Source of the DNA: an uncultured Olsenella sp.
GTDB lineage: Bacteria; Actinomycetota; Coriobacteriia; Coriobacteriales; Atopobiaceae
Length of the DNA stretch: 64,000 bases
Direction of reading: 5' to 3'
Assembly: GCA_900314495.1 (NCBI GenBank)
Contig: OMVJ01000002.1
Coordinates: 1 to 64,000, forward strand
The translations under genes were made by a program, and so were the position numbers. Numbering within the stretch: position 1 is the stretch's first letter; each line of letters opens with the position of its first letter. Under the pieces are notes generated by a model that was not told the origin of the DNA, ran no database searches, and saw only the letters and a list, made by a program, of their open reading frames with translations. This document shows positions 18,217 through 27,537 of this stretch, piece after piece.

Positions 18217-18302
18217 TGGTACCGGCGGAGGGGCTCGAACCCTCACCCAGTCGCCTGGAGCAGATTTTGAGTCTGCCGCGTCTGCCATTCCGCCACGCCG
18301 GC
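18217..18302 (-). tRNA. tRNA-Leu (anticodon CAA)
   Basis: An 86-base type II tRNA with long variable arm is readable on the minus strand. The acceptor is GCCGGCG with CGCCGGT (last pair G-T), the anticodon stem GCAGA/TCTGC with loop CTCAAAA, and the T-arm contains GGTTCGAGCCC. Positions 34-36 are CAA, reading TTG leucine codons. CCA is encoded. An inverted repeat CAAATTGGC/GCCAATTTG (18144-18186) lies downstream and may act as a terminator, though without a T-tract. Confidence 0.95.
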
Positions 18303-18361: not shown

Positions 18362-19000
18362 CTAGTCCATCTGACCGTTGAGCCAGGGGTTGCCCACAAG
18401 CTCGCGCTCCATGGTGGTCGCGGCGTTGTGGCCGCACAGAAGCACCGTCTTGGGGGGAATCAGGGTCCTCAGGCGCGCCAGAGTCTGCTTCATCACTTGC
18501 GGGTCGCCACCGGGAAGGTCCGTGCGGCCGGCGGAGCCTGCGAAGATGGTGTCGCCAACGAAGGCAATGCCCTGGCCCAGCAGCACCAGGCCGCCCGGCG
18601 TGTGGCCCGGCGCGGCAATGACCTCGAAGTCGGCGGACCCAATGTGGATGGTGTCCCCCTCCTTGAGAATGCGGTCGGGCTCCGGGGCGTCCTCGTCCGC
18701 AAAGCGCGAGGTCTGCGTGGCGTGCGTGGCCATCTCGCGGTCCTCGGCGCTCATGGCGAAGGGCGCGTCGGTCTCCTCCTTGAGGGCGGCCACGCCGCTC
18801 ACGTGGTCGCCGTGGCCATGCGTCGCCACTATGAGCCTCACGTCCACGTCGTCCAGCCTGTCTGCTATGTCCGCGCCGGAGTCCCCGGGGTCCACGACCA
18901 TGCACTCGCCGTCGGAGACGAAGGCGTAGCAGTTGGTCTGGATGGGGCCCACCACGAACTGGCGGATCTCGTTCTGGGAAGACTGCTGGTTCTCTGCCAT
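18362..19000 (-). CDS. MBL-fold metallohydrolase, glyoxalase II-like
   Basis: A 212-residue metallo-beta-lactamase-fold hydrolase. The metal-binding motif THGHGDH, the second-site GHTPGG, the FVGDTIFAGSAGRTDLPGG strand-loop and the final CGHNAATTM place it in the hydroxyacylglutathione-hydrolase-like (YcbL/GloB-like) group. The likely activity is thioester or related hydrolysis; the physiological substrate is unknown. The ATG at 19000 is one base from the rel stop codon, so it is translated from the same message, a pairing common in Gram-positives. No terminator follows before tRNA-Leu. Confidence 0.9.
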   Translation of the reverse strand: MAENQQSSQNEIRQFVVGPIQTNCYAFVSDGECMVVDPGDSGADIADRLDDVDVRLIVATHGHGDHVSGVAALKEETDAPFAMSAEDREMATHATQTSRFADEDAPEPDRILKEGDTIHIGSADFEVIAAPGHTPGGLVLLGQGIAFVGDTIFAGSAGRTDLPGGDPQVMKQTLARLRTLIPPKTVLLCGHNAATTMERELVGNPWLNGQMD

Positions 19001-19001
19001 G

Positions 19002-21374
19002 CTAGTTGGTCCTTCTCTTCATCTCGTTGCCGCCCTCGCCGGGCATGATGCGGCGCGCGTCATACACGGACGGCACCCGGCTCACCGTGGAAAGCAGGGC
19101 GTCCAAGAGGCTTGCGTCGGAAATCACCACCAGGAAGCGGAGCCGCGCGATCCCCTGCTTGCTGGTCTGCGTTGCCGCGGAGAGTATGTTGGCGCCGGCC
19201 GCGTTCACGGCGGTGGTGACATCCTTCAGAAGGCCCATGCGGTCCGTGGCCTCCACCACTATCTCCACCTGGAACTCCGTGGCGCCGGAGGTGTCCCACT
19301 CCACGTTTATCATGCGCTCCGGGTGCTGCATGAGGCCCTTGACGTTGGGGCAGCTGGACCGGTGGACCGAGACGCCCCTTCCCCGCGTGATGAAGCCCAC
19401 AATGTCGTCACCCGCGACGGGGTTGCAGCAGTGCGCCAGGTGCACCAGCAGGTCAGGGTCCCCCGTCACCACAACGCCACAGTTGCTGCGCTTGCGCACG
19501 GGGGAACGGTGGGAGGTGCGCTGCACGACCTGCTGGGCATGCAGGGGCCTGTCGGCCGCTATGGCCTCCTGGAACTCCGCCTCTGCCTCCGCGTGCCTCT
19601 GTGCGGCCGCGGCGGCCTCCGGCGAGCCCTCCTCCAGGATGGCCTGGATGCGGTTGGCCACCTGCTTCACGGAGTTCTTGCCGTTGTAGATGCCCTGGTA
19701 CAGGTCGTCCACCGTGCGGACGTCAAACTGCGTGACCACCTTCTCTATGGCCTTGGTGGTGCGCGGGGTGGAGATTCCGTACCCGCGCTTTCGGAGCTCG
19801 CGCGCCAGCTCCGCCCTGCCCTGCTCGGCGTCGTCCGCCTTGGTCATGGTGGAGAAGTACTTGCGGATCTTGCTGCGGGCGGAGGGGGTTGCCACCAGCG
19901 TCAGCCAGTCGTGGCTGGGGCGCGCGTTCTTGTTGGTGAGGACCTCCACGCGGTCGCCCATCTGCAGCTTGTAGGTGAGCGGCACCACGGACCCGTTGAC
20001 CTTGGCGCCCACGCAGTGGTTGCCCACCTCCGTGTGCACGGCGTAGGCAAAGTCCAGCGGCGTGGAGTCGCGCCTCAGGCTCATGACCTCGCCCTTGGGC
20101 GTGAAGACGAAGATCTCGTCCTCGAAGAGGTCCACGCGCAGGTTGTTGAGGAACTCGTGCGGGTCGTCTATCTCCGCGTCGTTCACCCAGTCCAGGCTGC
20201 GGCGGATGTGGTTGATGGTGGAGTCGATGTTCTTGTCCTCCACGGACATCTTCCCCTGGGAGTTGCCGGCCTTCTTGTACAGCCAGTGGGCGGCAACGCC
20301 GTATTCCGCGTGCTCGTGCATCTCCTGCGTGCGAATCTGAATCTCGATGGGGCGGGCGTCCGGGCCGATGACCGTCGTGTGCAGCGACTGGTACAGGTTC
20401 GGCTTGGGCATGGCGATGTAGTCCTTGAAGCGGCCGGGAAGCGGGTGCCACAGCGAGTGCACCGCACCCAGGACCGAATAGCACTCCCCCACGGTGTCGG
20501 TGATGACGCGCAGGGCAATGAGGTCGTAGATGTCCGAGAACTCCAGGCTCTTCATCTGCATCTTGTGGTAGATGGACCACAGGTGCTTGGGCCGGCCAGA
20601 GATCTGGAAGTGCTCTATATGCGCGTGGCGCAGCTCGTTGCCCAGCAGTTGGATGGCCTTCTCGGTGTCGCGCTCGCGCTGCGCGCGGGAGTCCTGCACC
20701 ATGCGGGCGATGCGGCCGTACTCCTCCGGGTCAAGGTACAGGAAGGCCAGGTCCTCCAGCTCCCACTTTATGGAGCTGATGCCCAGGCGGTCCGCCAAGG
20801 GGGCGTACACGTCCATGGTCTCGCGCGCCTTGAAGAGGCGGCGGTCCGGGGGCAGGGCGGCCAGGGTGCGCATGTTGTGCAGGCGGTCCGCCAGCTTGAT
20901 GATGACCACGCGGATGTCCTTGGACATGGCCAGGAACATCTTGCGCAGGTTGAGGGCCTGCTTCTCGTCCATGGAGGCGACCTGGATGGACGTGAGCTTG
21001 GTCACGCCGTCCACCAGCTCCGCCACGGTCTGGCCAAAGCGAACGCGCAGGTCGTCAAGGGTGGCGGGGGTGTCCTCCACCGTGTCGTGCAAGAGGGCGG
21101 CGCAGATGCAGTCCTCGTCCATGCGCAGGTCCTTGGCAAGGATGAGCGCGACCTCGACGGGGTGGTTGATGTAGGCCTCCCCGGACCGGCGGCGCTGGTC
21201 CTTGTGGAACTCCGCGGCAAAGTGGTAGGCCCGCTCGCACTTGGCGCACTCCTCAGCACTCAGGTAGCTGCGGCAGGTGTTGGACAGCAGGCGGTAGTGG
21301 TCGGCCTCCGGGATGCGCACCTTACCCTTGGTCGCGGCTTCCTGACGCGCAGGACTCTCTTCTTGCGTAGACAT
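19002..21374 (-). CDS. rel: Bifunctional (p)ppGpp synthetase/hydrolase, Rel
   Basis: A 790-residue RelA/SpoT homologue of the long bifunctional kind. The HD hydrolase domain shows HPVEVALILAKDL and ALLHDTVEDT. The synthetase domain shows GRPKHLWSIYHKM, ALRVITDT, the RFKDYIAMPKPN loop and YQSLHTTVIG. The RxKD form is the one seen in bifunctional Rel. TGS (DEIFVFTPKGEVMSL), zinc-finger-like (NCGVVVTGD..VHLAHCCNPV) and ACT domains follow. The ATG at 21374 follows TAGGAGGGAG. It lies 13 bases after the RecJ-RecQ fusion gene and one base before the MBL gene, so it belongs to the secD-to-MBL transcription unit. Confidence 0.96.
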   Translation of the reverse strand: MSTQEESPARQEAATKGKVRIPEADHYRLLSNTCRSYLSAEECAKCERAYHFAAEFHKDQRRRSGEAYINHPVEVALILAKDLRMDEDCICAALLHDTVEDTPATLDDLRVRFGQTVAELVDGVTKLTSIQVASMDEKQALNLRKMFLAMSKDIRVVIIKLADRLHNMRTLAALPPDRRLFKARETMDVYAPLADRLGISSIKWELEDLAFLYLDPEEYGRIARMVQDSRAQRERDTEKAIQLLGNELRHAHIEHFQISGRPKHLWSIYHKMQMKSLEFSDIYDLIALRVITDTVGECYSVLGAVHSLWHPLPGRFKDYIAMPKPNLYQSLHTTVIGPDARPIEIQIRTQEMHEHAEYGVAAHWLYKKAGNSQGKMSVEDKNIDSTINHIRRSLDWVNDAEIDDPHEFLNNLRVDLFEDEIFVFTPKGEVMSLRRDSTPLDFAYAVHTEVGNHCVGAKVNGSVVPLTYKLQMGDRVEVLTNKNARPSHDWLTLVATPSARSKIRKYFSTMTKADDAEQGRAELARELRKRGYGISTPRTTKAIEKVVTQFDVRTVDDLYQGIYNGKNSVKQVANRIQAILEEGSPEAAAAAQRHAEAEAEFQEAIAADRPLHAQQVVQRTSHRSPVRKRSNCGVVVTGDPDLLVHLAHCCNPVAGDDIVGFITRGRGVSVHRSSCPNVKGLMQHPERMINVEWDTSGATEFQVEIVVEATDRMGLLKDVTTAVNAAGANILSAATQTSKQGIARLRFLVVISDASLLDALLSTVSRVPSVYDARRIMPGEGGNEMKRRTN

Positions 21375-21387
21375 GTGCCGCTCCCTC

Positions 21388-24300
21388 CTACTTGTCGACC
21401 ACGGTGCCAAAGGCCGGCACGATGGGCCGATTTATTCTGTCGAGCATCTCCTGCGGCCGCGAGGACAGGGCCCAGTCGCAGAAGGCGACGAACTCCTCGC
21501 GCGAGCGGATGCCCTCCAGGTAGCGAATGGAACGGTCAAGCTCCATCCGCTGCGGGCTTGCTACCATGGTAATCCGTCTGGCGGTTCCGTAGCCCCTCGT
21601 TGTGAGGAACCCAAGCTCTTTGAAGATTGATACCCCGCATGACACGGAGTGCTCGTCCAGCTCCGTGCACTGGTCGATGGTCAGCGCGCAACGCACTATG
21701 TCCGCGTTGGAGAGGCAGAACGAGCCGTCCCCGCCCTGCGCCTCGGAGCTGCGGGCAAGCCACGTGAGGGCGCGGTAGAGGGTCACCAGGTCACAGCGAG
21801 ACGGCGCGGCGGAGGCCAGGATCCTCTGGTTGATGCGGCTGTCGCGGCTGCCGAAGAGCAGGTACACCGTGGCGGGCTTGCCGTCGCGGCCGGCGCGGCC
21901 GCTCATCTGGTTGAACTCCACCGCGCCGAAGGGCATGTGGTACAGGATGACGTTCCTGATGTCCGGCAGGTTGACGCCCTCGCCAAAGGCGCTGGTGCTG
22001 ACTATGCAGCAAAGCGCGCCGCTGCGGAAGGCCTTCTCCACCCTGGAGCGGTCCGTGCGCGAGAGGCCGGCGTTGTAGAAGGCAATCTTCTGGCCAAGGT
22101 CTGGCAGGCTGTGCCTGAGCATGCGGGCAAGCGTCACCGACTGCTCGCGCGAGTTCACGTACACCACCGTCTTCTGGCCCGTCGCCACAATGGACACGAC
22201 GGCGGCCTCACGGTCGCGCAGCTCCCGGCAGTCCACCACGGAGAGGTTCTTGCGCACGGACTGGTCCACCACCACGTCGTTGGCGGAGATGCTGAGCAGG
22301 CGGCAGATCTCGCGCGCGATGGGCGTCGCAGCCGTTGCCGTGACGGCGAGTGCGGTCGGGTTGCCCAGGGTGGCCAGGACCTCGGGCAGGGAGGTGTAGG
22401 CGCCACGCTTGCCGCCCTTTGCCATGCCCGCGTGGTGGGCCTCGTCCACCACCAGGAAGCCCACCCTGTGCGCCTGGGCAAAGCGGTCGGCGTGGATGAC
22501 CAGGAACTCCGGCGTGGTAAGCAGCACGTCCACCGCTCCCGAAGCCAGGGCCGAGAAGGTGTCGTCGCGCTCGTCCAGGGAGGTCTCGCCCGTGAGGACG
22601 CGCACCTGCATGCCCAGCTGGCCAAACTCCTCCTGCAGGTGGAAGGCCTGGTCTGCCACCAGGGCCCGCAGCGGGTACACGAACACGCTCGCCCGCCCGC
22701 GCACTATGGCCTCGCGCGCGGCGTGAATGTGAAAGATGAGCGACTTGCCCCTGCCGGTAGCCATGACGCACAGGGTGGAGTGGCCCTGGGCAAGCTTCTG
22801 CAGGGCGGCGCGCTGGGCGGGAAGCAGGTCGTGCCTGCCGATCATCTCGGTCTTCAGGTGGTCCGTGAGCTCGTCGTAGGAGTACCGGGCAAGCTGGCCG
22901 CGGCGGTCGTTGGGCTCCGCGCTGGGGGCGCCGCCCGCCTTGGCGGGCTCGTCCGTGCGGACGATCTGCACGTTCACGCCCAGGGAACGCCTGCCGTCGC
23001 CACCCGTGACCTCGCGGACGTTTGCCACATAGGTCGCCCCCGCGTCGATCAGCGGTGCCAGCACGCTGGCGATCTGGCGCCTGAGGAAGCCCACCTGGCG
23101 CGCGTGCGCCGTCATCAGCGCCAGGGCGTTGGGATCAAACTGGTTGTCCGCCTCGTGCACCACGGAGAGGACGTCCCCCACGCACAGCTGCGTCAGCACC
23201 TCCTGACGGCCCTCGAGGGTGACGCCCACCGCCTTGGTGAAGAAGGTCTTGGCCTCGGCGATGCCGCTGTACTCGTCATGCGAGAGTATCTCGTCCGTGC
23301 GCGAGAAGAGGTCATCCGTCAGGGAGTCCGCCTGGGCCTGGGCGGCGGGGGCGTCGCGGTACAGAATGTCTTTCACCATGAGCTTTGGCTTGGTGCGGTC
23401 CTGCCAAGTCTCGTTCACGGCGTCGAACACCAGGTCCACGGCACCGTCGTAGCTGGCCGCCCGCTCAATGTCCGGCGTACGGAACATGATGGCCGGCACC
23501 GTGCTGAGGCCGTCCGTGGCAAGGAAGCGCAGGTGCGTCCTGCCGCCTCCCACGCGAGACCGATTGCGCATGAGCACGCCCGTGGTTCCCAGCAGGGGCT
23601 TCTTGTTGCCCTGGCCAAAGGGCTGCAGGACCTCCAGTGCGTCGATGTTCTCGCGCGTGAGCTCGCCCAGGCCAACCAGGGCGGCAACCTCGCCCCTGTC
23701 CTCGAACTGCTCGCTGGGGAGCTCGTCCATGACCTCCTCCAGCCGGCTGCGGAAGGCGTCCAGGTTTGCGGCGTCGCAGGTGACGCCCACCGCGCCCGCG
23801 TGGCCGCCGAAGCGCACCAGGAGGTCCGAGCACTGCTCCACGGCATGGAAGAGGTCCACGGAGCCGACGCTGCGGCCGGAACCGCGCGCCACCCCGTCGG
23901 AGATGGTGAAGAGGATGGCGGGCACGTGATACTTGCTCACGATGCGGCTTGCCACGATGCCCTTCACGCCCTCGTGCCAGCCCTCGCCGCCGACCACGAT
24001 GACGCGGCCGCCGGTGTAGGTGGCATCCAGCTTGGCCATTGCCTCGTCCGTGAGCACGGACTCAATCTCGCGCCGCTCCGTGTTCGTCTGCTCCAGCTTG
24101 CCCGCCAGGACCGCCGCCTCCGCCGGGTCGTCCGTGAGGAGAAGGTCGAAGGCCACGTCCGTGGTTCCCATGCGGCCCGCCGCGTTCAGGCGCGGTATCA
24201 GTGTGAAGGGAAGGTTGTCCGCCGTGATCGTAGCAAGGTCCACCCCCGCCGTGGCGGCTAGGGCGACTATGCCGGGACGTCGCGTCGCGCGCATGTGCTC

Positions 24301-25059
24301 TATGCCGTCCGTCACCAGGGCGCGGTTCTCGCCCTGCAGCAGCATCATGTCGGAGATGGTCCCCAGGGTCGCCACCTCGGTGTAGCCACGCCACAGGTCG
24401 GGCTCTCCCAGCCTGCGGCCCAGCTCGCACACCAGCTTCAGCGCCACGCCGGCACCGGCCAGCTCGCGCGAGTAGTTCTCCTGGTCCATCTTGGGGTCAG
24501 TGACGGGCACGCCCTCCGGAACAAGGTCGCCCGGCTCGTGGTGGTCCGTCACCACCACGTCTACGCCCTGCTGCCTCAGGGCGGCAACCTCCTCCTTGGC
24601 GGCGATGCCGTTGTCCACCGTGACTATGAGGTCTGGGTGGCACTTGCCCATGACGCGCTTCAGGGCCTCCACGGAAAGGCCGTAGCCCTCGCCAAAGCGG
24701 TGGGGTATGAAGGGCGTCACGTCAGCACCGAAGTGACGCAGCGCAAGCGTAAGCAGGCAGGTGGAGCTCATGCCATCCACGTCGAAGTCACCGAAGATGG
24801 CAATCCTCTCGTGCCGGTCAAGGGCCAGAAGCACGCGGTCCACGGCGGCGGCCATGCCCGGGATGTCCAGCGGATCCGCCCAGTCCCTCTCCAGGGAGGG
24901 GGTGAGGAAGGCGCGCGCGGCCTCCGGCGTCCTAATGCCCCGCGCCACCAAGACCCTGGCAACCAGCGGCGGAATGCCGCAGGCCCCGCTCAGCAAGCCT
25001 TCGGCCTCGGGGTCTGACCCAAGTACCTCCCACCGCCTGTTGTCCCGAAGGCCCGCCAT
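21388..25059 (-). CDS. recJ: RecJ exonuclease fused to HIRAN and RecQ-like helicase
   Basis: A single 1223-residue frame joins three modules. Residues 1-570 are RecJ, the 5'-3' single-strand DNA exonuclease: DFDVDG (91-96), VDNGI (148-152), TDHHE (171-175), GGHAGAVGV (418-426) and an OB-like region to about 570. Residues 605-702 form a HIRAN-like domain with NQFDPNAL (639-646) and GFLRRQIASVLAPL. Residues 725-1223 are an SF2 RecQ-type helicase: Walker A ATGRGKS (767-773), DEAH (872-875), VTATAA (906-911) and motif VI MSGRAGRDG (1052-1060). All catalytic residues are present. Ordinary RecJ is about 570 residues and RecQ is separate. RecJ and RecQ act together in recombination, which makes the fusion sensible. 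It follows secF by 29 bases. Confidence 0.93.
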   Translation of the reverse strand: MAGLRDNRRWEVLGSDPEAEGLLSGACGIPPLVARVLVARGIRTPEAARAFLTPSLERDWADPLDIPGMAAAVDRVLLALDRHERIAIFGDFDVDGMSSTCLLTLALRHFGADVTPFIPHRFGEGYGLSVEALKRVMGKCHPDLIVTVDNGIAAKEEVAALRQQGVDVVVTDHHEPGDLVPEGVPVTDPKMDQENYSRELAGAGVALKLVCELGRRLGEPDLWRGYTEVATLGTISDMMLLQGENRALVTDGIEHMRATRRPGIVALAATAGVDLATITADNLPFTLIPRLNAAGRMGTTDVAFDLLLTDDPAEAAVLAGKLEQTNTERREIESVLTDEAMAKLDATYTGGRVIVVGGEGWHEGVKGIVASRIVSKYHVPAILFTISDGVARGSGRSVGSVDLFHAVEQCSDLLVRFGGHAGAVGVTCDAANLDAFRSRLEEVMDELPSEQFEDRGEVAALVGLGELTRENIDALEVLQPFGQGNKKPLLGTTGVLMRNRSRVGGGRTHLRFLATDGLSTVPAIMFRTPDIERAASYDGAVDLVFDAVNETWQDRTKPKLMVKDILYRDAPAAQAQADSLTDDLFSRTDEILSHDEYSGIAEAKTFFTKAVGVTLEGRQEVLTQLCVGDVLSVVHEADNQFDPNALALMTAHARQVGFLRRQIASVLAPLIDAGATYVANVREVTGGDGRRSLGVNVQIVRTDEPAKAGGAPSAEPNDRRGQLARYSYDELTDHLKTEMIGRHDLLPAQRAALQKLAQGHSTLCVMATGRGKSLIFHIHAAREAIVRGRASVFVYPLRALVADQAFHLQEEFGQLGMQVRVLTGETSLDERDDTFSALASGAVDVLLTTPEFLVIHADRFAQAHRVGFLVVDEAHHAGMAKGGKRGAYTSLPEVLATLGNPTALAVTATAATPIAREICRLLSISANDVVVDQSVRKNLSVVDCRELRDREAAVVSIVATGQKTVVYVNSREQSVTLARMLRHSLPDLGQKIAFYNAGLSRTDRSRVEKAFRSGALCCIVSTSAFGEGVNLPDIRNVILYHMPFGAVEFNQMSGRAGRDGKPATVYLLFGSRDSRINQRILASAAPSRCDLVTLYRALTWLARSSEAQGGDGSFCLSNADIVRCALTIDQCTELDEHSVSCGVSIFKELGFLTTRGYGTARRITMVASPQRMELDRSIRYLEGIRSREEFVAFCDWALSSRPQEMLDRINRPIVPAFGTVVDK

Positions 25060-25088: not shown

Positions 25089-26042
25089 CTACTCCCCGGC
25101 AGCGGTAACCGTAGCCGAACCGGCACCGTAGCGCGACTCCAATGCGGCCCATTTGGGCTCGCGCGTCTTCCACATGGCAAGGAGGGGCGATGCGATGGCG
25201 AAGCTGGAGTAGGTGCCCAGCGCCTCGCCGATCAGCATGGCGAAGGCGAAGTCCCTGAGGGTGGCACCGCCAATGACCAGCATGGCAACGACGGGGACCA
25301 GCGTGGTGATGGTGGTGTTGATTGAGCGGACGATCACCTCGTTGATGGAGAAGTTGCAGATCTGGTAGTAGGTGCGGTGCACGCCGTCCTTGAGTTCCTT
25401 TGCGTTCTCGTTCATGCGGTTGAACTCCACCACGGTGTCGTACAGCGAGAAGCCCATGATGGTGAGGAGGGCGGCAACCACGTTCGGCGTGATGGCAATG
25501 CCCGTCCACGCGTACACGCCCAGCGTGATGACCAGGTCGTGCACCAAGGCCACCACGGCCGTGATGGACATCTTGAACTCGTAGCGAATGGAGACGTAGG
25601 CGATGATGGCAAGGATTGCCACACCAAAGGCCAGCAGGGACGAGCGCGTGGTGTCCGCACCCCAGTCGGGGCCGATGGTGGTGGTGAGGTAGTTGTCTGA
25701 CGTGAGGCCCAGCGCCGCGGCCGTGGCGGCCGCATGCTCGTTGGCGGCATTGGGGTCCGTGGTGTCGGACCGGACGATGAAGCCGTTGGAGCCGTCCGTC
25801 GTTGCCGTCTGCACGGTGGGGTCCGCCTCGCCCGCGTCAACCAGGGCGGAGCGCATCTGCTCTATGGTAATGTCGCCCGTGTCGGTGAAGTCGATCTCCG
25901 TGCCGCCCTGGAACTCGATGCCAAAGGTCAGGCCGCGAACGAGGAGCCCCACGACGGCCAAGACCACCAGCACGGCGGAGATGCCCAGGAAGACCTTCCT
26001 GTGCTGGATGAACGGGATCTCGAACGAGAAGTGGCTACGCAT
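25089..26042 (-). CDS. secF: Protein translocase subunit SecF
   Basis: A 317-residue membrane protein with six expected transmembrane segments. It starts MRSHFSFEIPFIQHRK, has the first-loop GIEFQGGTEIDF, and the later DLVITLGVYAWTG and FSLYDTVVEFNRMNEN motifs of SecF. Together with SecD it uses the proton-motive force to help Sec-dependent export. The ATG at 26042 overlaps the secD stop by 8 bases. The frame is open upstream but inside secD. Confidence 0.96.
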   Translation of the reverse strand: MRSHFSFEIPFIQHRKVFLGISAVLVVLAVVGLLVRGLTFGIEFQGGTEIDFTDTGDITIEQMRSALVDAGEADPTVQTATTDGSNGFIVRSDTTDPNAANEHAAATAAALGLTSDNYLTTTIGPDWGADTTRSSLLAFGVAILAIIAYVSIRYEFKMSITAVVALVHDLVITLGVYAWTGIAITPNVVAALLTIMGFSLYDTVVEFNRMNENAKELKDGVHRTYYQICNFSINEVIVRSINTTITTLVPVVAMLVIGGATLRDFAFAMLIGEALGTYSSFAIASPLLAMWKTREPKWAALESRYGAGSATVTAAGE

Positions 26043-27537
26043 CGGCGCCACCCCCTTCCACGGCAGTGGCGACCGACATCGCATCGCGCTTCCTCTGGCC
26101 CTCCGCAAGGTCATGCTTGATACCCCAGAAGCCGGGGTGCTTCTCTATGGTGTGGAGCGCGAGCAGGCGCAGCGCCGGCGCCTTGAAGCAGAACATGGTG
26201 ATGACGTCGCACACGACGCCAAGCGCCAGCGTCAGGCCGAAGCCCTTGACGGGGCCCACGGCCACGAAGAAGAGGGCGAGGGCGGTGACCAGCGAGACCG
26301 CATCCGCATCCAGCGAGGTCATGATGCCGTGCTTGGCACCCGAGACCGACGCGTTCTTCACCGTGCGACCCATGCGAATCTCCTCGCGGAAGCGCTCCAG
26401 AACCAGGATGGAGGAGTCCGCCGCAGAGCCCGTGGTGAGCACGACCGCCGCCAGGCCGGGAAGCGTCAGCGAGTAGGCGCCAAAGTGCGAGAGCAGAGCA
26501 AGAATGCCCAGGTAGACGATGCCAAAGACGATGAGCGACCCCATGGTGAGGATGCCCAGGCCCTGGTAGAAGACGAAGAGGTACACAATGACGATGGCGG
26601 CACCGATGACGATGGCGCGCACGCCCTGGTTGAGGGAGTCCTGGCCAAGCGTGGGACCGACCACGCGGCTCTCCGAATACGTGAGCGTGACGGGGAGCGA
26701 GCCGGAATCCAGGACGGTCTTCAGCGACTTGGCCTCGTCCACGCTGAAGTTGCCCGTGATGGAGACCTGGCCACCCGTGATCTCGGACTGAACGGCCGGG
26801 GCGGAGCTCACCTTGCCGTCCAGTACGATGGCGATCTGGCCCTTGGTGGGCGCCAGCTCCTTGGTGACCTGGGCAAACTTCTGCGTGCCCTCGGAATCAA
26901 ACGAGATGTCCACCGAATACTCGCCGGTGGCGGACTCTGACGCCTGGTTCACCGAGGTGCTGGAGATGTGGGAGCCGTCCAGAAACGCCGTGTAGGTGCC
27001 TGGCTTGAGCTCGACGTCCTTGGTGCCCGCGTTGATCTTCGCCAGCGCGTCCGCGTCACCTATCTGGTCCATGCGGACGAACTCCAGGTGGCCCGTCTCG
27101 CCGATGGTCTTCACCGCGGCGTCCGCGTCGGTGGCGCCGGGAATCTGCACCAGGATGGAGTTGGCACCCTGCTGCTGGACGCTGGTCTCAGCCGCGCCCA
27201 GGGAGTTGACGCGCTGCTGGACGATCTGCACCGCGGTTGCCATCTCGTCGCCGGAGGGGGTGGAGCCGTCCTCCTTGGAGGCGGTCATGATGACGGAGAC
27301 ACCGCCCTCGATGTCCAGGCCGCGGGTGATCTTGTCGCCAAGCGGCGTGAAGCCCCACACGCAGACCGCCATGCCAACCAGCAGCACGAAGAGCGTGCTG
27401 AGATAGCGCCGCCTGTCTGCGCGCGTGCGGCGGTTGCGCGCGCGGCCACCGTTCTTGCCTCGCGGGGAAGACGCCGCCTCGTCCGCGTTCCAGCGGTCGA
27501 CGCCCGTCTTCTCCTCGTCCTTGTTGTGTCGTGCCAT
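26035..27537 (-). CDS. secD: Protein translocase subunit SecD
   Basis: A 500-residue SecD. After a basic Arg-rich start (RNRRTRADRRRYL) comes one transmembrane helix, then GLDIEGGVSVIMTA (the family GLDLxGG motif), a large extracytoplasmic domain, and five more helices with TLPGLAAVVLTTGSAADSSILVLER. The ATG at 27537 has AGGAAATCTGC upstream. It is the first gene of a unit that continues through secF, recJ-recQ, rel and the MBL gene. YajC is not in the window. Confidence 0.96.
   Translation of the reverse strand: MARHNKDEEKTGVDRWNADEAASSPRGKNGGRARNRRTRADRRRYLSTLFVLLVGMAVCVWGFTPLGDKITRGLDIEGGVSVIMTASKEDGSTPSGDEMATAVQIVQQRVNSLGAAETSVQQQGANSILVQIPGATDADAAVKTIGETGHLEFVRMDQIGDADALAKINAGTKDVELKPGTYTAFLDGSHISSTSVNQASESATGEYSVDISFDSEGTQKFAQVTKELAPTKGQIAIVLDGKVSSAPAVQSEITGGQVSITGNFSVDEAKSLKTVLDSGSLPVTLTYSESRVVGPTLGQDSLNQGVRAIVIGAAIVIVYLFVFYQGLGILTMGSLIVFGIVYLGILALLSHFGAYSLTLPGLAAVVLTTGSAADSSILVLERFREEIRMGRTVKNASVSGAKHGIMTSLDADAVSLVTALALFFVAVGPVKGFGLTLALGVVCDVITMFCFKAPALRLLALHTIEKHPGFWGIKHDLAEGQRKRDAMSVATAVEGGGADA

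Follow-up and report, generated by a model that had tools for sequence, protein, structure and literature searches.

Within the 64,000-nucleotide stretch of DNA analysed here (the window; contig OMVJ01000002.1 of an uncultured Olsenella sp.), a single gene encodes a RecJ nuclease, a HIRAN domain and a RecQ-like helicase in one polypeptide. We consider it fairly probable that this fusion is the housekeeping RecJ of its cell, apparently in the ancestral complete form, and that RecJ ancestrally had this same architecture in much of the Bacillota and the Coriobacteriia, where it would have served as a one-chain end-resection machine. The RecJ proteins of Bacillus subtilis, Staphylococcus aureus and Lactococcus lactis would, by the same account, be fossils of the fusion that carry a remnant of the motor in another role, for example binding of a partner or of SSB (single-stranded DNA-binding protein).

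The fusion frame is open on the minus strand from its ATG to its TAG stop, and its DHH, DHHA1, RecJ_OB, HIRAN, DEAD and Helicase_C domains all lie above the Pfam curated cut-offs (Table 1). These matches bear out the three-part architecture proposed in an earlier account made from the letters alone (the sequence-only reading), which also gave the right coordinates and domain borders but left the minus strand unstated. A frameshift between residues 590 and 760, which that account had named as a refutation, was looked for and none was found. A congener (L009) and many relatives have frames of the same length, and an assembly chimaera is therefore ruled out. The RecJ catalytic motifs are present (DFDVDG at residues 91-96, DHH at 172-174 and GGH at 418-420) and are invariant or nearly so in 42 members of the family. 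The helicase motifs are present as well (GRGKS at 769-773, DEAHH at 872-876 and motif VI, NQMSGRAGRDG, at 1050-1060, with GRAGRDG at 1054-1060). Indeed, every catalytic motif named beforehand for either enzyme is intact, with most residues invariant or nearly so among the 42 relatives.

The fusion scores 464.7 bits against a cut-off of 396.9 for the NCBIfam RecJ family TIGR00644, and its nuclease part is predicted to be a RecJ-type 5'-3' single-stranded DNA exonuclease. With other RecJ proteins (E. coli, Thermus, Deinococcus, S. aureus 8y30) it shares the DHH, DHHA1 and OB domains, all motifs and the recJ-rel locus. E. coli RecJ, however, ends at the OB domain, whereas the fusion continues with HIRAN and a whole helicase; in the same place Bacilli RecJ has the non-catalytic C-terminal domain PF10141. 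Deinococcus RecJ likewise has a non-catalytic C-terminal domain, linked to HerA binding (PMC4663267). The identity of the HIRAN part is supported by a profile of 19 HIRANs of the family, which recovers solved HLTF HIRAN domain structures (E = 1.7e-11).

The helicase part is a RecQ-like motor core with a different C-terminal domain, and not a canonical RecQ. In a fold search with the helicase (model residues 155-645) of a model of residues 572-1223 (m2beebbc81624; predicted local distance difference test score, pLDDT, 87.8), WRN was matched at Z 26.8 and BLM and D. radiodurans RecQ at Z 26.4, and by sequence the fused helicase matched RecQ 4tmu at E 3e-32. The label 'RecQ-like' thus holds for the motor core, with its shared RecA1 and RecA2 and its best fold and sequence matches in the RecQ family (RecQ, WRN, BLM, RECQL5), but not beyond that core. 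The NCBIfam RecQ cut-offs are unmet (TIGR00614, recQ_fam, 162.1 versus 219.8; TIGR01389, 178.2 versus 640.2), and none of the 42 members has a conserved cysteine beyond residue 1060, the RQC zinc cysteines being absent, whereas 15 of 16 stand-alone RecQs retain the cysteine columns. No HRDC domain was matched by Pfam in the fusion at E up to 1; HRDC is also absent from some true RecQs. Alignment of the fused helicase with the stand-alone RecQs, drawn from 16 genomes, is confined to RecA2 (162 columns), and the RecQ family lacks the 5'-3' nuclease attached here.

WRN, like the fusion, combines a nuclease and a RecQ-type helicase in one chain, but the WRN exonuclease is a 3'-5' DEDD enzyme, whereas the fusion's nuclease is a predicted 5'-3' DHH enzyme of independent origin. 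Proteins of the HLTF/Rad5 type, like the fusion, place HIRAN next to an SF2 motor; unlike the fusion, HLTF lacks a nuclease, its motor is a SNF2 translocase and it carries a RING domain. The DinG proteins of S. aureus and B. subtilis that carry an exonuclease domain are a further bacterial fusion of a nuclease with an SF2 helicase (PMC12345164, PMC12525004), but unlike the fusion they pair a 3'-5' DEDD exonuclease with an XPD-type 5'-3' helicase. An anti-phage defence helicase (DpdF, PsyrT) was considered and rejected: the PADLOC match covers the motor only (204 bits) and the locus is the housekeeping secDF-recJ-rel.

The fusion is not a peculiarity of the source genome. The survey across Coriobacteriia that the sequence-only reading proposed returned a match in every one of the 140 family genomes searched and in 294 of 298 for the class, mostly as one long frame of 1,000-1,350 amino acids. 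Elsewhere in the phylum the fusion was seen only in the families f30 (the Candidatus Oleimmundimicrobium lineage) and f83. Among 398 sampled genomes of the Bacillota phylum that includes L154, a strong match (E below 1e-90) occurred in 31, or about 8%, with frame lengths of about 1,090-1,270 amino acids in almost every case; most have HIRAN and a few do not. For example, Acetohalobium arabaticum (G951; genome PMC3035264) carries the fusion on a single contig of 2,469,596 bp. L154 and L157, which also carry the fusion and are titled Bacillota/Firmicutes, were considered as mislabelled Coriobacteriia; this was ruled out, as they show 38-44% identity to all Actinomycetota members and 65% to each other. 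Kinship among the fused forms is vertical. Annotation as 'RecJ' alone hides the helicase throughout the Coriobacteriia, and we found no description of a RecJ-HIRAN-helicase fusion in the open-access literature. The components were already known, and the domain combination is probably listed automatically in databases; within that literature, the full domain arrangement and its distribution are new, as is the view of the Bacilli RecJ tail as a relic, for which no account was found either.

Two members of this collection call for separate remark. The fusion of L143, titled Aeromicrobium sp., shares about 70% identity with those of Coriobacteriia, and this metagenome-assembled genome is probably mislabelled. 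In L087 (G003:C3, a 99% complete genome) the fusion lies in two overlapping frames split near residue 395, through a sequencing error or a real frameshift.

The genomic setting also argues for housekeeping use, as had been suggested earlier. No second RecJ was found in the source genome, where the fusion is the only one, and its presence in the class is near-universal. The genes secD, secF, the recJ fusion and rel all lie on the same strand, and by consensus scan alone no terminator-like site was found on the coding strand within the secD-secF-recJ-rel stretch. The likely rel ATG stands 13 nucleotides beyond the recJ stop and is preceded by a GGAGGGAG site. This secD/F-recJ-(x)-rel locus is common to fused, decayed and Bacilli-type RecJ forms and is kept across two phyla.

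For the working of the protein we favour, with moderate confidence, a coupled unwind-and-digest mechanism. At a break, gap or stalled fork the helicase would load on the 3'-ending strand and move 3'-5', the polarity expected from RecQ-type motors. The RecJ site in the same polypeptide would receive the displaced 5'-ending strand and digest it 5'-3', leaving a 3' tail for RecA, while HIRAN would hold or recognise the 3' end. The latter ligand is suggested by HLTF, whose HIRAN binds 3' DNA ends and has the aromatic-stacking residues Y72/Y93 (PMC4666394). One chain would in this way do the job of the separate RecQ and RecJ of E. coli. According to PMC4846377, citing Morimatsu and Kowalczykowski 2014, E. 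coli RecJ needs RecQ to resect blunt or 3'-overhang ends, in agreement with the general logic of joint RecQ-RecJ repair from which the sequence-only reading had argued. The fusion could offer a single-polypeptide model for RecQ-RecJ end resection, which is otherwise studied with separate proteins, and natural controls are at hand in relatives without HIRAN, with a dead full-length helicase or with no helicase.

Several observations weigh against this coupled mechanism. The fused motor is not the sole RecQ-type helicase of the source genome, which has a separate stand-alone RecQ (G000:C21:136942) with cysteine columns as in other RecQs. In one genus of Coriobacteriia, two genomes encode RecJs of 571 and 584 amino acids (L080 in G145 and L081 in G218) that have wholly lost the helicase at the same secDF-recJ-rel locus; they nest beside the fused G141 on a tree of the RecJ core and represent a natural helicase deletion. 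In many Coriobacteriales, moreover, HIRAN is cleanly gone, leaving short linkers, with nuclease and helicase kept. HIRAN is an accessory, dispensable to the machine, because it has been lost repeatedly while both enzymes stay. The 'sense' module of the sequence-only reading is therefore present in the source protein but not essential, being cleanly missing in many close relatives.

Outside the order Coriobacteriales, every sampled Coriobacteriia genome has the HIRAN domain, at about 92 amino acids, bar two that lost the whole helicase part. The domain is also present in f30 and most Bacillota fused forms, and the PF08797 match is found in 25 of the 42 members. A class-wide census placed HIRAN mostly in frames of more than 1,000 amino acids in the other orders, and in the families f2 and f3 listed it as small separate frames of about 110-250 amino acids. 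On the RecJ-core tree its loss accounts for 11 changes among active forms, a rough figure since many forks are open. The source genome also has a second, stand-alone HIRAN frame of 138 amino acids (L092, G000:C17:92062-92328), and HIRAN frames of this small kind are common in those Coriobacteriales genomes in which the RecJ fusion has lost HIRAN.

As an alternative to resection, HIRAN and helicase might reverse or regress stalled forks in the manner of HLTF or RecG, with RecJ trimming the regressed or nascent 5' end and the helicase being no resection motor. Two sources give this reading some appeal: the HIRAN of HLTF has been linked to fork reversal (PMC4666394, with its reference to Kile 2015), and in E. 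coli blocked forks are processed by RecJ and RecQ (Courcelle and Hanawalt, as cited in PMC4846377). We regard it as possible but unlikely: HIRAN is repeatedly lost from forms whose helicase is intact, and the motor core is nearest to RecQ, WRN and BLM rather than to SNF2 or RecG translocases. The fusion might instead act by tethering only, so that two independently acting enzymes are made in equal amounts and recruited together, for example to SSB. Fixed geometry is indeed not apparent, the linker from OB to helicase, with or without HIRAN, varying widely from 62 to 217 residues, and the helicase may decay or vanish while RecJ persists. Architecture and domain order are nevertheless kept across at least two phyla, which suggests a benefit in cis, and we find tethering alone doubtful.

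An ancestral fusion also bears on the RecJ proteins of the Bacilli. Weak matches to fused members were obtained with PF10141 (ssDNA-exonuc_C), the C-terminal domain of Bacilli RecJ, and prompted a survey in which the domain was present in the B. subtilis and L. lactis controls, strong in some genomes of the Bacillota phylum, and weak in RecJs of 770-996 amino acids. These intermediate RecJs have recognisable RecA2 and winged-helix sequence and no helicase motif. Two larger proteins retain a full-length helicase at the same locus: L257 (G929; 1,175 amino acids) has a HIRAN match at 8e-17 and a helicase match at 2e-49 with motifs I, II, III, V and VI all destroyed, and L258 (G649) is similar but without HIRAN. 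Profile comparison with hhalign aligned the dead intermediates with the intact fused RecA2 and winged-helix part at 99.9% (E 1e-32, 251 columns), the intermediates with PF10141-type domains at 99.1% (E 7e-19, 190 columns), and the fused with the PF10141-type directly at 97.5-98.0% (206 columns); controls for the last comparison gave 0.3% (reversed) and 1.7% (stand-alone RecQ). In a calibrated PDB sequence search with the dead intermediates as sole query, the RecA2 of WRN (E 5e-8) and the C terminus of S. aureus RecJ (8y30, 610-735; E 2.8e-6) were both recovered. It is thus well supported by sequence that many Bacillota RecJs descend from the fusion and that PF10141 of Bacilli RecJ is what remains, catalytically dead, of its RecA2 and winged-helix part, a proposed degenerate homologue of about 200 residues with no helicase motif and no RecA1.

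The helicase appears to have died several times independently and to have decayed in place in other Bacillota, with PF10141 as the last relic. Relic rows do not group together on the RecJ-core tree but fall in various places among intact ones (L230 with L253/L254; L257 with L241-L244), implying at least 7 changes, and a single clade of all relic forms is rejected (approximately unbiased test, p-AU 1.6e-5). This tree is quick and unrooted, many of its rows deviate in composition, and the exact number of losses is unsure; its architecture labels were set by hand from the motif columns, with L076, L078, L079, L253, L255 and L256 scored as intact helicases. We take the changes to be losses, since a dead remnant cannot arise by gain.

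Two results speak against the relic. In a structure search the PF10141 model alone matched S. aureus RecJ 8y30 at Z 15.9, with RECQL4 and RECQL5 at Z about 6, within noise and tied with other folds (Deinococcus RecJ was weakly listed, E 0.011), and plain HMMER detects the helicase in the intermediates but not in the Bacilli forms. The weak structural match would suit separate origins, in which PF10141 has no kinship with the helicase and the latter arose by several gains, as would the quick tree with odd composition in many rows. We judge separate origins improbable, given the chain of significant profile matches with its reversed and RecQ controls and the full-length dead helicases of L257, with detectable HIRAN, and L258, which are inexplicable by gain. 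An assembly, frameshift or annotation artefact is rejected as having a negligible chance, the same frame being found in dozens of independent genomes, single-contig ones such as A. arabaticum included. Descent from the fusion would explain, in a form open to testing, where the PF10141 domain at the RecJ C terminus of Bacillus, Lactococcus and Staphylococcus came from.

Table 1. Features of the recJ fusion gene and its neighbours, in window positions.
Feature	Positions	Strand	Details
recJ-HIRAN-helicase fusion gene	21388..25059	minus	1,223 amino acids; ATG at 25059, TAG stop at 21390-21388
DHH nuclease domain	24361..24807	minus	residues 85-233; PF01368, 77.7 bits (cut-off 28.1)
DHHA1 domain, FGGHAG motif	23728..24009	minus	residues 351-444; PF02272, 48.3 bits (cut-off 25.9)
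RecJ OB domain (RecJ_OB)	23368..23676	minus	residues 462-564; PF17768, 64.1 bits (cut-off 27)
HIRAN domain	23002..23247	minus	residues 605-686; PF08797, 35.5 bits (cut-off 24.7)
Helicase RecA1 (DEAD)	22324..22821	minus	residues 747-912; PF00270, 75.6 bits (cut-off 26); model m2beebbc81624
Helicase RecA2 (Helicase_C)	21880..22194	minus	residues 956-1060; PF00271, 82.8 bits (cut-off 23.5)
C-terminal winged-helix-like/helical domain	21394..21804	minus	about residues 1086-1222; unlike RecQ RQC; part related to PF10141
secF	25089..26114	minus	upstream neighbour of the fusion, gap 29 nucleotides; open reading frame list and synteny
secD	26035..27537	minus	upstream neighbour; open reading frame list and synteny
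rel ((p)ppGpp synthetase/hydrolase)	19002..21374	minus	downstream neighbour; likely ATG at 21374

Further along, rel is followed by a metallo-hydrolase gene (18362-19000), and just past it lies a tRNA gene on the minus strand (window 18220-18302).

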